Assembly: GCF_002080415.1 (NCBI RefSeq)
Contig: NZ_CP020474.1
Span: forward strand, 2,555,501-2,619,500
Source: Roseovarius mucosus
Lineage (GTDB): Bacteria > Pseudomonadota > Alphaproteobacteria > Rhodobacterales > Rhodobacteraceae
DNA length: 64,000 bases
Reading direction: 5' to 3'
The notes below the pieces were generated by a model. It was not told where the DNA came from. It was given only the letters and a program-made list of their open reading frames with translations, and did no database searches. Of the stretch, positions 48,795 through 52,541 are shown piece after piece. A program made the position numbers and the translations under genes. Numbering within the stretch: position 1 is the first letter of the stretch; each line of letters begins with the position of its first letter.

Positions 48795-51138
48795 CGCGGC
48801 GCGCTTTCTGACGCGCGATAGCGCTCAGCAGCCGCTCGGGTGTGGCCGGGGCGTCAAGCGCCGGATAGCCCGAACCAAACGCCGCCACCGCAGCGCTGAG
48901 CGCCATCAGCGCCGAAATCCCCAGCATAAAGGGCGGCTCGCCGACAGCCTTGGAGCGATAGATCGTTGGGCGCGGATTCTGCGCCTCCCACAGCGCCACG
49001 TTGAACACCGCTGGCCGGTCTGAACAGGCAGGGATCTTATAGGTCGAGGGCGCGTGGGTGCTGAGCCGTCCGGCCTTGTCCCACACCAGTTCCTCGAGCG
49101 TCAGCCAGCCCGCCCCCTGCACATAGCCGCCCTCGATCTGCCCGATGTCGAGCGCGGGATTAAGCGAGGCCCCGCAATCATGCACGATATCGGCGCGCAG
49201 GATGCGGTTCTCGCCGGTCAGGCCGTCGACGATCACCTCGGTCACGGCCGCCCCATAGGCAAAGTAATAAAATGGCCGCCCCTCTCCCTTGATCCGGTCC
49301 CACGCAAGGTCGGGCGTCTTGTAAAAGCCGGTGGCGGACAGGCTCACGCGCTGTTCGTAGCAGAACCGGGCGGCCTCTGCGAAGCTCAGGTGGGCCGTTC
49401 CCACCCGCAGGCGACCGCCGTCAAATTGCACCTCCTCGGGCGGCACGGTGTGATGCGCCGCCAGACAGGCAGCCATCCGGTCGCGGATCGTATCGCAGGC
49501 CGCCTGAACCGCCATACCGTTGAGATCGCTGCCGGAACTTGCCGCTGTGGCCGAGGTATTGGGCACTTTGGCGGTATCGGTCGCGGTGATCTTGATGGCC
49601 TCTAGCGGCAGGCCAAAGCACGCGGCGGCCACTTGTGCCACCTTCTGAAACAGGCCCTGTCCCATTTCCGTGCCCCCGTGATTGAGATGCACAGACCCAT
49701 CCTGATAGACATGCACCAAAGCGCCCGCCTGATTGAGATGGCTGAGCGTAAAGGAAATCCCGAACTTGACCGGCGTCAGCGCTAGGCCCTTTTTCAGCAC
49801 GGGATTGCGGGCGTTCCACGCCGTCACCGCTGCCCGCCGCGCGGCATAGTCCGAGGTTTGCATCAGCCGCTCGGTCATCTCGTGCAGGATGAAATCCTCG
49901 ACCTTCTGCCCATAGGGCGTGACCTGCGGTTTCATCTGGCCCGAAACACCTTCGGGGGGGCGCGCAGCGCGGGGGGCAGACAGCCCCCCTCCGACGGCTG
50001 CGGCATAGTAATTGCGCTGCCGCACCACGACAGGATCAAGGCCCAAATGATGCGCCACATGATCCATCACCCGCTCGATGCCCAGCATGCCCTGCGGCCC
50101 GCCAAAGCCCCGGAACGCGGTGGCAGAGGCGGTGTTGGTGCGCAGCCGATGGCTCTCGATCCGCACGGCGGGCAGGAAATAGGCGTTATCGGCATGCAGC
50201 ATGGCGCGGTCGGCCACCGGCAGCGACAGATCCTGCGACCAGCCGCAGCGGGCGTAGTGCACGAAATCCACCCCTGTCAGCCGCCCGGTGGCGTCGAACC
50301 CGGCCTGATAGGTGATGCGGAAATCATGGCGCTTGCCGGTGATCACCATGTCATCGTCGCGGTCATAGCGCATCTTGCAGGGCGTCCCCGTGTGCCGCGC
50401 TGCGACGGCGCAGGCGATGGCGGGGGCGTTGGCTTGGCTCTCCTTACCGCCAAAGCCGCCGCCCATGCGCCGCGTCTCGACCCGGACGGCATGCATGGGT
50501 CGGCCAAGGGCCTCGGCCACCTTGTGCTGCACTTCGCTCGGATGCTGGGTCGAGGCGTGGATCACCATGTCGCCCCCCTCTTGCGGCAGCGCAAGGGCCG
50601 CCTGGCCTTCAAGATAGAAATGCTCTTGCCCGCCCATCTCGATCACGCCACCCACCCGGTGGGCCGCCTTGGCGATGGCCGCCGTGGTATCGCCCCTTTG
50701 CCAGATACGCGGGCCGTCTTCGAAGCGGCTATTGGCGGCCAATGCGGCGTCGATGGTCAGAAGGGGCGTCGTTTCTTCGTAACATACCTGTCCCCGGCGC
50801 GCGGCGCGGCGTGCGGCCAGATGGCTGGTGGCGATGACCAGAAAGAGCGGCTGGCCGTGATAGAGCACCGCGCCCGTGCACAAGAGCGGTTCGTCATGGG
50901 CCGAGGGCGAGCAATCGGCCCCCTGCGGCAAGTCAGCGGCGGTCAGCACGGCGACGACCCCGGCGCATTGGCGCACCGGCGCAAGGTCCATTTCGGTCAC
51001 GCGCCCGGCCGCGATGGTGCTGAGGCCAAAGGCCAGATGCAGCGTGCCGCGTGGGCTGGGGATATCGTCGACATAGCGCGCGGTGCCCGTCACATGCAGG
51101 CGTGCGGCGTCATGGGGCAGAGGGCGCGCCACGCTCAT
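48787..51138 (-). CDS. xdhB: xanthine dehydrogenase molybdopterin-binding subunit
   Basis: XdhB holds the molybdenum cofactor and oxidises hypoxanthine and xanthine to uric acid. The 783-residue protein has TGTARYVDDIPSP at the start, QEHFYLEGQAALALP, GGGFGGKE, the TAFRGFGGPQG Arg-containing block, GGTEMGQGL, and GEPPFMLGISALMAL with the catalytic Glu region (EPP) near the C-terminus. Residues about 382-403 (GGLSAPRAARPPEGVSGQ) are encoded by an in-frame GC-rich repeat (49931-49993) that looks like an extra insertion in this otherwise well-conserved protein. Confidence 0.95.
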   Translation of the reverse strand: MSVARPLPHDAARLHVTGTARYVDDIPSPRGTLHLAFGLSTIAAGRVTEMDLAPVRQCAGVVAVLTAADLPQGADCSPSAHDEPLLCTGAVLYHGQPLFLVIATSHLAARRAARRGQVCYEETTPLLTIDAALAANSRFEDGPRIWQRGDTTAAIAKAAHRVGGVIEMGGQEHFYLEGQAALALPQEGGDMVIHASTQHPSEVQHKVAEALGRPMHAVRVETRRMGGGFGGKESQANAPAIACAVAARHTGTPCKMRYDRDDDMVITGKRHDFRITYQAGFDATGRLTGVDFVHYARCGWSQDLSLPVADRAMLHADNAYFLPAVRIESHRLRTNTASATAFRGFGGPQGMLGIERVMDHVAHHLGLDPVVVRQRNYYAAAVGGGLSAPRAARPPEGVSGQMKPQVTPYGQKVEDFILHEMTERLMQTSDYAARRAAVTAWNARNPVLKKGLALTPVKFGISFTLSHLNQAGALVHVYQDGSVHLNHGGTEMGQGLFQKVAQVAAACFGLPLEAIKITATDTAKVPNTSATAASSGSDLNGMAVQAACDTIRDRMAACLAAHHTVPPEEVQFDGGRLRVGTAHLSFAEAARFCYEQRVSLSATGFYKTPDLAWDRIKGEGRPFYYFAYGAAVTEVIVDGLTGENRILRADIVHDCGASLNPALDIGQIEGGYVQGAGWLTLEELVWDKAGRLSTHAPSTYKIPACSDRPAVFNVALWEAQNPRPTIYRSKAVGEPPFMLGISALMALSAAVAAFGSGYPALDAPATPERLLSAIARQKARRDA
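49931..49993 (+). repeat. GC-rich dispersed repeat inside xdhB
   Basis: On the plus strand (antisense to xdhB) this reads TTCATCTGGCCCGAAACACC and then TTCGGGGGGGCGCGCAGCG. The perfect-arm palindrome GGGGGGCAGACAGCCCCCC follows at 49971-49989, with TCCG after it. The same series, with few differences, is found in xdhA on the minus strand. It keeps the xdhB reading frame open. Confidence 0.8.
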
Positions 51139-52541
51139 GGCTGCACCTCAAGAACCGATGTGGCGATGCCCTGATCCTCTAGAAAATGGCGCATCAAAAG
51201 GTTGCGCGCGACGCAGAGGCGATAGTCGGCAGAGGCGCGCATGTCTGACAGCGGCGCAAAATCCTGCGCCCACGCTGCATCGCTGCCGGTGATCGTCGCC
51301 TCGGTCCAAGGCTGGCCAATCAGTGCCGCTTCGACATGGGCGGCACGCTTGGGAATGCCCGCCATGCCGCCAAAGGCGATCCGCGCGTCAGTGATCCGGC
51401 CCGCCTCAATGGTCAGGTTGAAACAGCCCAGCACCGCCGAAATATCCTGATCAAAGCGCTTCGAGACTTTGTAACAGCGCAGGCGGTCTGGCTGGCGGGG
51501 CAGGGTGATGGCCTCGATCATCTCGCCCGGCGCGCGGTCCTGCTGGCCGTAGCCCAGAAAGAACGCCTCGAGCGGCATCTGGCGGCGCGTGTCACCGTGG
51601 CGCAGATGCAGGGTGGCCCCAAGGGCGATGAGCGCGGGCGCGTTGTCGCCGATGGGCGAGCCATTGGCGATATTGCCCCCAAGCGTCGCCGCCGCACGCA
51701 CCTGTTCCGAGCCATAGCGCCGCAGCATCGCGGCATAGGAGGGGTGATAGGGGGCAATCGTCTGCATCAGCCGGGCAATGGTCAAGCCCGCGCCAAGGCG
51801 CATATCCCTGTCTGTCACCTCTGCGGTGCTCAGGTCCGTGCAGCCCCCCAGAAAGATTGGCAGGTTGATGTCGCGCAGCTGTTTGGTGATCCACAGGCCC
51901 ACATCGGTTGCGCCCGCGATCAGCGTCGCCTCAGGATGGGCGGCATAGAGGCGCGCCGCCTCATCGGCGCTCTGGGGTTGCAGCAACGCAGGGGGGCTGT
52001 CTGCCCCCCGCCCTTCGGGCCCCCCCGAAGGTATTTCGGGCCAGATGATATTGCGATCTTGCGTCATCCACGCGGGAATGGCGGCAGGTTCGGCGGCGCG
52101 GGCGGCGGTCAGGATGGGGGCATAGCCGGTGCATCGGCAAAGATTGCCCGCCAGAACCCGGTCGTGATCCCGCTCGCCATTAAGATGCGCGCAGGCCATC
52201 GAGGCGATAAAGCCCGGCGTGCAAAACCCGCATTGCGAGCCGTGATGCGCAATCATCGCCGCTTGAACCGGGTGCAATTGCCCCTCGGGGCCGCTGATCC
52301 CCTCGACCGTGCGCAGGGCCTTGCCCTGAAGCTGTGGCATGAGGAGAATACAGGCGTTGAGGGGCCGCGTGCCGGTCTCGTCACTGACGATCACGGTACA
52401 GGCCCCACAATCGCCCTCGTTGCAGCCTTCCTTGGTGCCGGTCAGGCCGCGCGCCTCTCGCAGCCAGTCAAGCAGAGTTGTGGTCGGGGTCACATCCCCA
52501 AGCGCCACGCTCTCTCCATTCAGAAGAAACGTGAGGGTCAT
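51135..52541 (-). CDS. xdhA: xanthine dehydrogenase iron-sulfur/FAD subunit
   Basis: XdhA passes electrons from the molybdenum centre via two [2Fe-2S] clusters to FAD and NAD. The 468-residue protein has Cys40, Cys45, Cys48 and Cys64 for the first cluster (EGCNEGDCGAC), then Cys104, Cys107, Cys135 and Cys137 for the second (CGFCTPG, CRCTGY), and the FAD-binding block from about residue 205 (LIAGATDVG, LGGNIANGSPIGD). Residues 165-186 (IIWPEIPSGGPEGRGADSPP) are encoded by a repeat element lying in the linker between iron-sulfur and FAD domains. It is the first gene of the operon. Confidence 0.95.
   Translation of the reverse strand: MTLTFLLNGESVALGDVTPTTTLLDWLREARGLTGTKEGCNEGDCGACTVIVSDETGTRPLNACILLMPQLQGKALRTVEGISGPEGQLHPVQAAMIAHHGSQCGFCTPGFIASMACAHLNGERDHDRVLAGNLCRCTGYAPILTAARAAEPAAIPAWMTQDRNIIWPEIPSGGPEGRGADSPPALLQPQSADEAARLYAAHPEATLIAGATDVGLWITKQLRDINLPIFLGGCTDLSTAEVTDRDMRLGAGLTIARLMQTIAPYHPSYAAMLRRYGSEQVRAAATLGGNIANGSPIGDNAPALIALGATLHLRHGDTRRQMPLEAFFLGYGQQDRAPGEMIEAITLPRQPDRLRCYKVSKRFDQDISAVLGCFNLTIEAGRITDARIAFGGMAGIPKRAAHVEAALIGQPWTEATITGSDAAWAQDFAPLSDMRASADYRLCVARNLLMRHFLEDQGIATSVLEVQP
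51988..52050 (-). repeat. GC-rich dispersed repeat inside xdhA
   Basis: On the minus (coding) strand this reads ATCATCTGGCCCGAAATACC then TTCGGGGGGGCCCGAAGGGC and the arm-symmetric block seen on the plus strand as GGGGGGCTGTCTGCCCCCC at 51991-52009. It matches the xdhB copy almost base for base but in the opposite orientation relative to the gene. It encodes XdhA residues 165-186 without breaking the frame. Confidence 0.8.

Follow-up and report, generated by a model that had tools for sequence, protein, structure and literature searches.

Palindromic repeats that sit in frame within protein-coding genes have been described mainly from Rickettsia, where the Rickettsia palindromic elements (RPEs) are about 150 bp long, fall into ten families and have nearly half of their copies in open reading frames (ORFs) (PMC3733652; PMC10969869; these and the other articles cited are drawn on in excerpt). 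The element considered here comes from Roseovarius mucosus, of the alphaproteobacterial family Rhodobacteraceae. Two of its copies lie in xdhB and xdhA, neighbouring genes for subunits of xanthine dehydrogenase (XDH), within a window of 64,000 nucleotides (assembly GCF_002080415.1, contig NZ_CP020474.1, positions 2,555,501 to 2,619,500). Both segments belong to a family of dispersed Rhodobacteraceae elements, and what is new here is that the xdh copies tend to be spelled in concert with the other copies of their own genome.

The original prediction had likened the repeat to RPEs. The likeness lies in a dispersed palindromic repeat that occurs both between genes and in frame in unrelated genes (here xdhA, xdhB and cobN) and is missing from orthologues. 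Unlike RPEs, the element is only about 45-85 bp long, is found in another alphaproteobacterial family, is nearly always extragenic and has species dialects; the large share of copies in ORFs that characterizes RPEs is not seen (2 of the 34 R. mucosus copies inspected, and 1 of 61 elsewhere). Compared by description rather than by RPE sequences, the element appears to work like an RPE, as had been proposed, rather than being one.

Three other kinds of repeat resemble it in part. The BoxC, PIT and TM-ECO potential intrastrand triplex motifs also have three co-varying G, G and C runs and a short link; TM-ECO has the form C9-N3-6-G9-N3-G9, and the ITxF search accepted runs of 6-15 (PMC4666352). 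The runs of the present element are in the opposite order (G-N3-G-loop-C), are 4-7 long and are accompanied by a conserved tag, and the triplex likeness is one of sequence geometry only. Repetitive extragenic palindromic (REP) sequences and GTAG- or CGTC-tagged palindromes are likewise small, dispersed and hairpin-forming; inspected by eye, the ends of the present element bear neither GTAG nor CGTC, taking the tag definition from the excerpted source (PMC3733652). The DNA uptake sequences (DUS) of the Neisseriaceae are 10-12-mers with thousands of copies and a reader, ComP; their spelling is genome-wide and species-specific, they are linked to terminators, and copies occur within genes (PMC3630211). 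The likeness to DUS dialects is in spelling pattern only, in that spelling is species-specific and copies also occur in genes, whereas the Rhodobacteraceae element is a bipartite tag with hairpins, present in tens of copies and without a known reader. No published account of the element family was found, judging by titles and abstract openings in a search that left most subscription journals outside.

Architecture and spread of the element

A repeat of about 60 bp had been predicted to be shared by the two genes, antisense to one and sense to the other, with both frames open. A repeat search of the window bore this out, returning an inverted pair (49932-49993 / 51987-52048) of 62 nt and 92% complementarity, the longest inverted repeat listed in 49000-53500 (the next is 26 nt at 85%). 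The ORFs, of 783 aa and 468 aa, are open across an antisense copy in xdhB (copy B) and a sense copy in xdhA (copy A). Copy B was matched at 49935-49987 (E 1.6e-10) and copy A at 51993-52045 (E 4.6e-12) by a covariance model whose 33 training copies were dispersed ones of several genomes, none of them from an xdh gene. Residue ranges calculated from nucleotide coordinates agreed with the prediction for XdhB (382-403), a segment between the Pfam matches MoCoBD_1 (to 377) and MoCoBD_2 (from 425); the XdhA segment is 164-185, not 165-186 as predicted, and lies between Fer2_2 (78-147) and FAD_binding_5 (from 186).

In the 4.38-Mb R. mucosus genome (G000) the consensus comprises a bipartite tag, TTCATCTGGC-NNN-AAATACCTC, followed by G5, by either 3 nt or a hairpin, and by G5-loop-C5, with copies of about 45-85 bp. 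The tag is not palindromic and the hairpin block is, so the description as a palindromic repeat applies to the block alone. The motif ATCTGGCNNNAAATA has 34 exact sites in this genome, and 59 when one mismatch or fewer is allowed, and its abundance is not due to chance because the reversed control pattern has 0; one of the 34, at position 2289064, has no element around it. Further copies of the family were found with the covariance model, which gave 41 matches in G000 and, at E<=0.001, matches in 63 of the 80 Rhodobacteraceae genomes sampled (per-genome counts near 69 in this survey mean at least that many).

The run lengths co-vary among 31 G000 copies (Spearman 0.86 for G-C1, 0.45 for G-C2 and 0.51 for C1-C2), with G equal to C1 in 29/31 and to C2 in 25/31. 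The link between two of the runs is exactly 3 nt in 17 of these copies, 2 nt in 1 and longer in 13, and the longer links are mostly hairpin-forming. Four of the nine predicted pairs of the middle stem are changed on both sides, with pairing kept, in at least one copy. The variant common to both xdh copies (CTGTCTG loop, CCGAAGG) was not seen in the other G000 copies displayed.

Rfam 15 gave no match at the gathering score in the window and five G000 loci, and at E<=1 in 49900-52100 just two matches, far under the cut-offs and off the elements. A pattern search in 115 genomes of the taxonomic class gave matches in none of the 114 beyond G000; the pattern misses the main G000 form and is therefore weak on breadth. 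In peptide searches of plasmids, one gave no match and one two weak matches (E 4) under no listed feature, and low-complexity filtering may hide copies there. At a few G000 sites (G000:C1:403453, 998176, 2232250 and 3821148) the tag is of a second type (TTCTTTTTGGCNAAAATACTCCGGGG and similar), and one locus of another genome (L210, G067:C39) has three tandem element copies spaced 118-119 bp.

Spelling of the xdh copies within and between genomes

Copies A and B were more alike within a genome than between genomes. Tail identity was 0.888 within and 0.765 between genomes and middle identity 0.688 and 0.447 (15 genomes), and identity over the whole element was 0.821 and 0.746 (18 genomes); none of 20,000 permutations, which treat genomes as independent, reached any of these differences. 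Loci L128 and L136 were left out of the test, and the within-genome excess persisted with near-duplicates dropped. The spelling shared by A and B is, for example, GAGAGTATTTC.GCCAAAAAGA in L091 and GAGGATATTTC.GCGAAGGTGA in L145, and the intergenic copies of these example genomes have the same outer half-site. A and B are translated in opposite orientations into unlike peptides, and still their nucleotides agree within a genome. This agreement shows that something is at work on the nucleic acid, DNA or RNA, and protein-level selection fails to explain the dialect.

The xdh tags were also compared with the intergenic tags of 11 genomes, using intergenic tails copied by hand, mostly one per spelling and not every row. 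Identity at the outer half-site was 0.824 to the own genome and 0.618 to other genomes (0 of 50,000 permutations), and at the two bases left of TATTT 0.776 and 0.590 (376 of 50,000). The xdh copies thus tend to follow the intergenic ‘dialect’ of their own genome, with clear exceptions.

The spacer between the half-sites is free and its flanks are fixed: in the 31 G000 copies the spacer holds at most 0.41 bits, against 1.1-1.7 bits for the flanks, a value that is partly so by construction because these copies were picked by flank patterns. In genome G067 a varying triplet is followed by GAC and then by a fixed AGA in every listed copy, with all six of the preceding bases left open by the pattern, and three copies with the same imperfect stem still differ in their spacer. 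Mismatches between A and B peak at the middle base of the spacer (11/15; 0-4/15 at other tag positions). Half-sites that stay fixed around a variable spacer are more readily explained by recognition in trans than by simple copying.

Distribution among relatives and placement beside genes

The same covariance model was run over 786 kb, made up of the window plus 80 named loci from XDH relatives, and gave 74 matches at E<=0.1 and 72 at E<=0.01 (40 in xdhB, 26 in xdhA and 6 elsewhere). The xdhB site is occupied in 40/81 loci and the xdhA linker site in 26/79 (two truncated loci set aside; 25 sorted by script, plus L128), which leaves 41 and 53 loci without the element; both genes carry it in 18 loci by script, or 19 with L128. 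Ordinary conserved XDH residues were rejected as an account of the segments: about half of the loci lack the xdhB segment and about two thirds the xdhA one, and both were detected by a model trained on copies from outside the xdh genes.

All 81 xdhB ORFs, including the 40 that bear the element, are at least 767 aa long. The XdhB loop spans 40 aligned residues in R. mucosus and from 22 to 72 in element-free loci, a range due to other segments that also occur there; two such recurrent segments, RFGGxxSP and DLxSRGA, are found in many loci (e.g. L112, L138, L097 and L131). The tag alone is kept in the xdhB of L134, L167, L133 and L105. An AlphaFold2 model of XdhA that is otherwise fair (mean predicted local distance difference test score, pLDDT, 81.2) falls under 50 at residues 168-178 and 180-184, in line with the linker that had been predicted. 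Residues 380-404 of XdhB are also under 50, which is weak evidence because that whole model is poor (mean 70.8, with many other stretches <50).

The xdh copies occupy the same places across many genera. On an XdhB tree (a quick search with Shimodaira-Hasegawa-like approximate likelihood ratio supports only) presence changes at least 19 times at the xdhB site and at least 12 times at the xdhA site, gain and loss not being distinguished. The best-matching solved enzyme, presumably that of Rhodobacter capsulatus and compared at the protein level, has related, shorter look-alike peptides at both places. Because of these look-alikes and the shared places, the copies look old, and yet repeated gain, loss or remaking appears to have taken place. 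The two hits that the original prediction placed in one operon do not look recent given this distribution; its mobile repeat in linkers survives as a dispersed in-frame element between Pfam domains, of varying length and missing from many orthologues.

A third host protein is CobN. The search found 4127 homologues, and among the 120 listed a segment such as GGGLSAPR..RPPEDISAKKK is present, by pattern match, in 23; those without it mostly have about 20 residues in all at the loop. The cobN copy is read in the same frame as the xdhB copy, and the peptide GGLSAPR..RPPEDIS is common to XdhB and CobN.

Several xdhA loci have features of their own. In L139 (Phaeobacter sp. J2-8) the frame breaks after the element, leaving an ORF of 230 aa that is a pseudogene or a sequencing error. 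At L115:2600-2660 the same linker contains, also in frame, a perfect inverted repeat of another sequence (GTAAGGTGGGTCTTGACCCACC paired with its complement). Near 2616 in L097, L147 and L153 it has a third recurrent in-frame segment, PEGxxPDASxEA (e.g. GGAGGGCCAAAGGCCCGACGCGAGC), which in L153 comes immediately after the main element. In Puniceibacterium (L126:3363-3403 and L136:3417-3457) the short xdhA-xdhB spacer has an extra copy beside the xdhB copy.

The element normally stands at the 3' ends of genes, where nearly all inspected copies were found; REP elements are also located 3' of genes. Of the 34 copies inspected in G000, two are the xdh copies and 32 lie between genes: 14 in convergent spacers, 13 and 5 in co-directional ones and none in a divergent one. 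Among 61 copies from five other genomes, convergent spacers held 20, co-directional ones 36 and a divergent one 1; 1 copy had a neighbour left uncalled, and 3 were called intragenic. Genes were called with a simple codon-bias caller, and the regions were chosen by hand (G064, 20/103 matches; G063, 20/28; G067, 10/48; G060, 4/10; G061, 6/12), one G064 stretch giving no copy and one G067 stretch containing three. Only the cobN copy (PF02514, E 6.3e-47) was accepted among the three intragenic calls; inspected by eye, the host of the L198 copy is a spurious ORF and that of the L227 copy a wrong start of trpC.

The window also holds the diverged intergenic copy that had been predicted at 23967. It starts 2-3 bases past a stop codon, keeps its tag and has lost most of its final hairpin; the gene downstream is probably lpd, judging by sequence. 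A survey of 40 genomes gave 30 loci for this site, 3 of them unreadable. Scored by eye, tag and hairpin are both present in 14 of the 27 loci that could be read in the genus (R. mucosus among them, though its hairpin is degenerate), the tag alone in 4 and neither in 9, several of which seem to have another upstream gene. The place of these copies is fixed and their spelling differs by species.

Table 1. Coordinates in the window of the element copies, their parts and the host genes.
Feature	Position	Strand	Basis or detail
Element copy within xdhB, antisense to gene	49931..49993	+	XdhB residues 382-403, VGGGLSAPRAARPPEGVSGQMK
Tag of xdhB copy	49931..49953	+	read from sequence; consensus from dispersed copies
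Outer half-site of xdhB tag, TTCATCTGGC	49931-49940	+	
Spacer of xdhB tag, CCG	49941-49943	+	
Inner half-site of xdhB tag, AAACACCTTC	49944-49953	+	
Hairpin block of xdhB copy	49954..49989	+	sequence, fold; G7 49954-49960, middle hairpin, G6 49971-49976, loop CAGACAG, C6 49984-49989
Element copy within xdhA, sense to gene	51988..52050	-	XdhA residues 164-185, NIIWPEIPSGGPEGRGADSPPA
Hairpin block of xdhA copy	51991..52026	-	sequence, fold; + strand letters: G6 51991-51996, loop CTGTCTG, C6 52004-52009, middle hairpin, C7 52020-52026
Tag of xdhA copy	52027..52050	-	+ strand letters: GAAGG TATTT CGG GCCAGATGA
xdhB, xanthine dehydrogenase molybdopterin-binding subunit, host gene	48787..51138	-	TIGR02965, 1213.7 bits
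xdhA, xanthine dehydrogenase small (FeS/FAD) subunit, host gene	51135..52541	-	TIGR02963, 555.8 bits
Diverged copy between genes, shortly past a stop codon and upstream of lpd	23967..24011	+	covariance-model E 2.9e-05

Explanations for the concerted spelling

The concerted spelling could reflect recognition of DNA or RNA by a trans-acting factor, or recurrent replacement. The reading preferred here, at roughly an even chance of being right, is that the segments are in-frame copies of a dispersed 3'-end element that are old, tolerated and still recognized, as DNA or RNA, by a factor acting in trans. Copies would have entered the xdhA linker, the xdhB loop and the cobN loop long ago and would have been tolerated there because the segments are flexible. 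Their present distribution, which the comparison of loci shows, would result from retention in some lineages and from loss or remaking in others. They may still be handled as elements at the DNA or RNA level, and their tags do tend, with exceptions, to shift with the genome-wide tag of the species. The factor would most likely read the two half-sites across the free spacer, a change in its specificity would pull the copies along, and the XDH and CobN peptides would be by-products of DNA-level pressure. A broader form is held more tentatively: the Rhodobacteraceae may possess a genome-wide recognition system with a species ‘dialect’ resembling that of the Neisseria uptake sequences, a system that reads the tag beside the GC hairpin or triplex block, with the XdhA, XdhB and CobN loops spelled by DNA-level selection and not by protein function.

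Several observations weigh against recognition in trans. The own genome scores best for the xdh tag in only 5/11 cases, and the best B for an A copy is that of its own genome in 8/15 (tail). Following is weak or lacking in G067 (0.50 vs 0.44), G064 (0.56 vs 0.52) and G061 (0.58 vs 0.48), and some genomes carry two or three tag types together. Five of the six Marivita-clade xdhB copies (L108, L125, L128, L129 and L141) have a degenerate tag, GGAGTTTRYC or similar, and hairpins that are altogether different, as if replaced. Several G067 copies have one imperfect middle stem in common, suggestive of recent copying. No trans-acting factor was identified, only the Y1 transposase family having been sought.

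Some of these observations are what would be expected of purely selfish turnover, in which a non-autonomous family copies itself or converts its copies, genic ones included, without function; this is unlikely but a serious contender. In G063 and G069, as in G067, middle stems are repeated between copies of a single genome, middle stems are also common to the A and B of a genome, and the repeated changes in presence on the XdhB tree and the swapped hairpins at one xdhB site in the Marivita clade point the same way. Conversion or copying should, however, bring the spacer along, and the spacer is the variable part even in the three G067 copies with the same stem. The lpd copy holds one place across species, and the REP/RAYT-type Y1 transposase (Y1_Tnp, PF01797) had 0 matches in G000, in a search limited to that transposase family, whose control was positive in 5/14 genomes. 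Shared middle stems and swapped hairpins indicate that copying or conversion happens too.

The 3' placement would also suit a transcription terminator or a REP-like stabilizer of the 3' end of mRNA, which within xdhA and xdhB might pause or attenuate transcription and so tune expression. Only 1 of the 89 two-sided intergenic copies pooled (32 + 57) lies between divergent genes and 34 between convergent ones, and as RNA a long copy folds well relative to shuffles (z -3.06) and the xdhA copy moderately (z -2.0). A short copy (z 0.15) and the xdhB copy (z -0.73), on the other hand, fold no better than shuffles, no U-run stands directly 3' of the hairpin, and in co-directional spacers the orientation to the upstream gene is only mildly biased (33 hairpin-first vs 21 tag-first). 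The tag occurs without hairpins in 4/27 loci at the lpd site, and species-specific tags would be left unexplained; such a role is improbable. The original prediction had suggested that the copies adjust subunit ratios, for which this analysis of sequence alone gave no evidence. It is very improbable that the peptides persist because they serve the proteins as functional linkers: the reading frame is kept in every xdhB ORF and one peptide recurs in XdhB and CobN, but A and B share nucleotides while encoding different peptides from opposite strands, the element is absent from 41/81 XdhB and 53/79 XdhA loci, and the XdhA model is of low confidence and linker-like at the segment.

That the element has a function is inferred. 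The Rhodobacteraceae provide a second group with in-frame palindromic elements, a free-living and largely cultivable one; of the three proteins that host them, two are close to a solved enzyme. With one copy in sense and the other in antisense orientation, the xdh operon makes a clean natural test of DNA-level versus protein-level evolution. If the dialects reflect a reader, the tag of each species would be a ready bait with which to find it.

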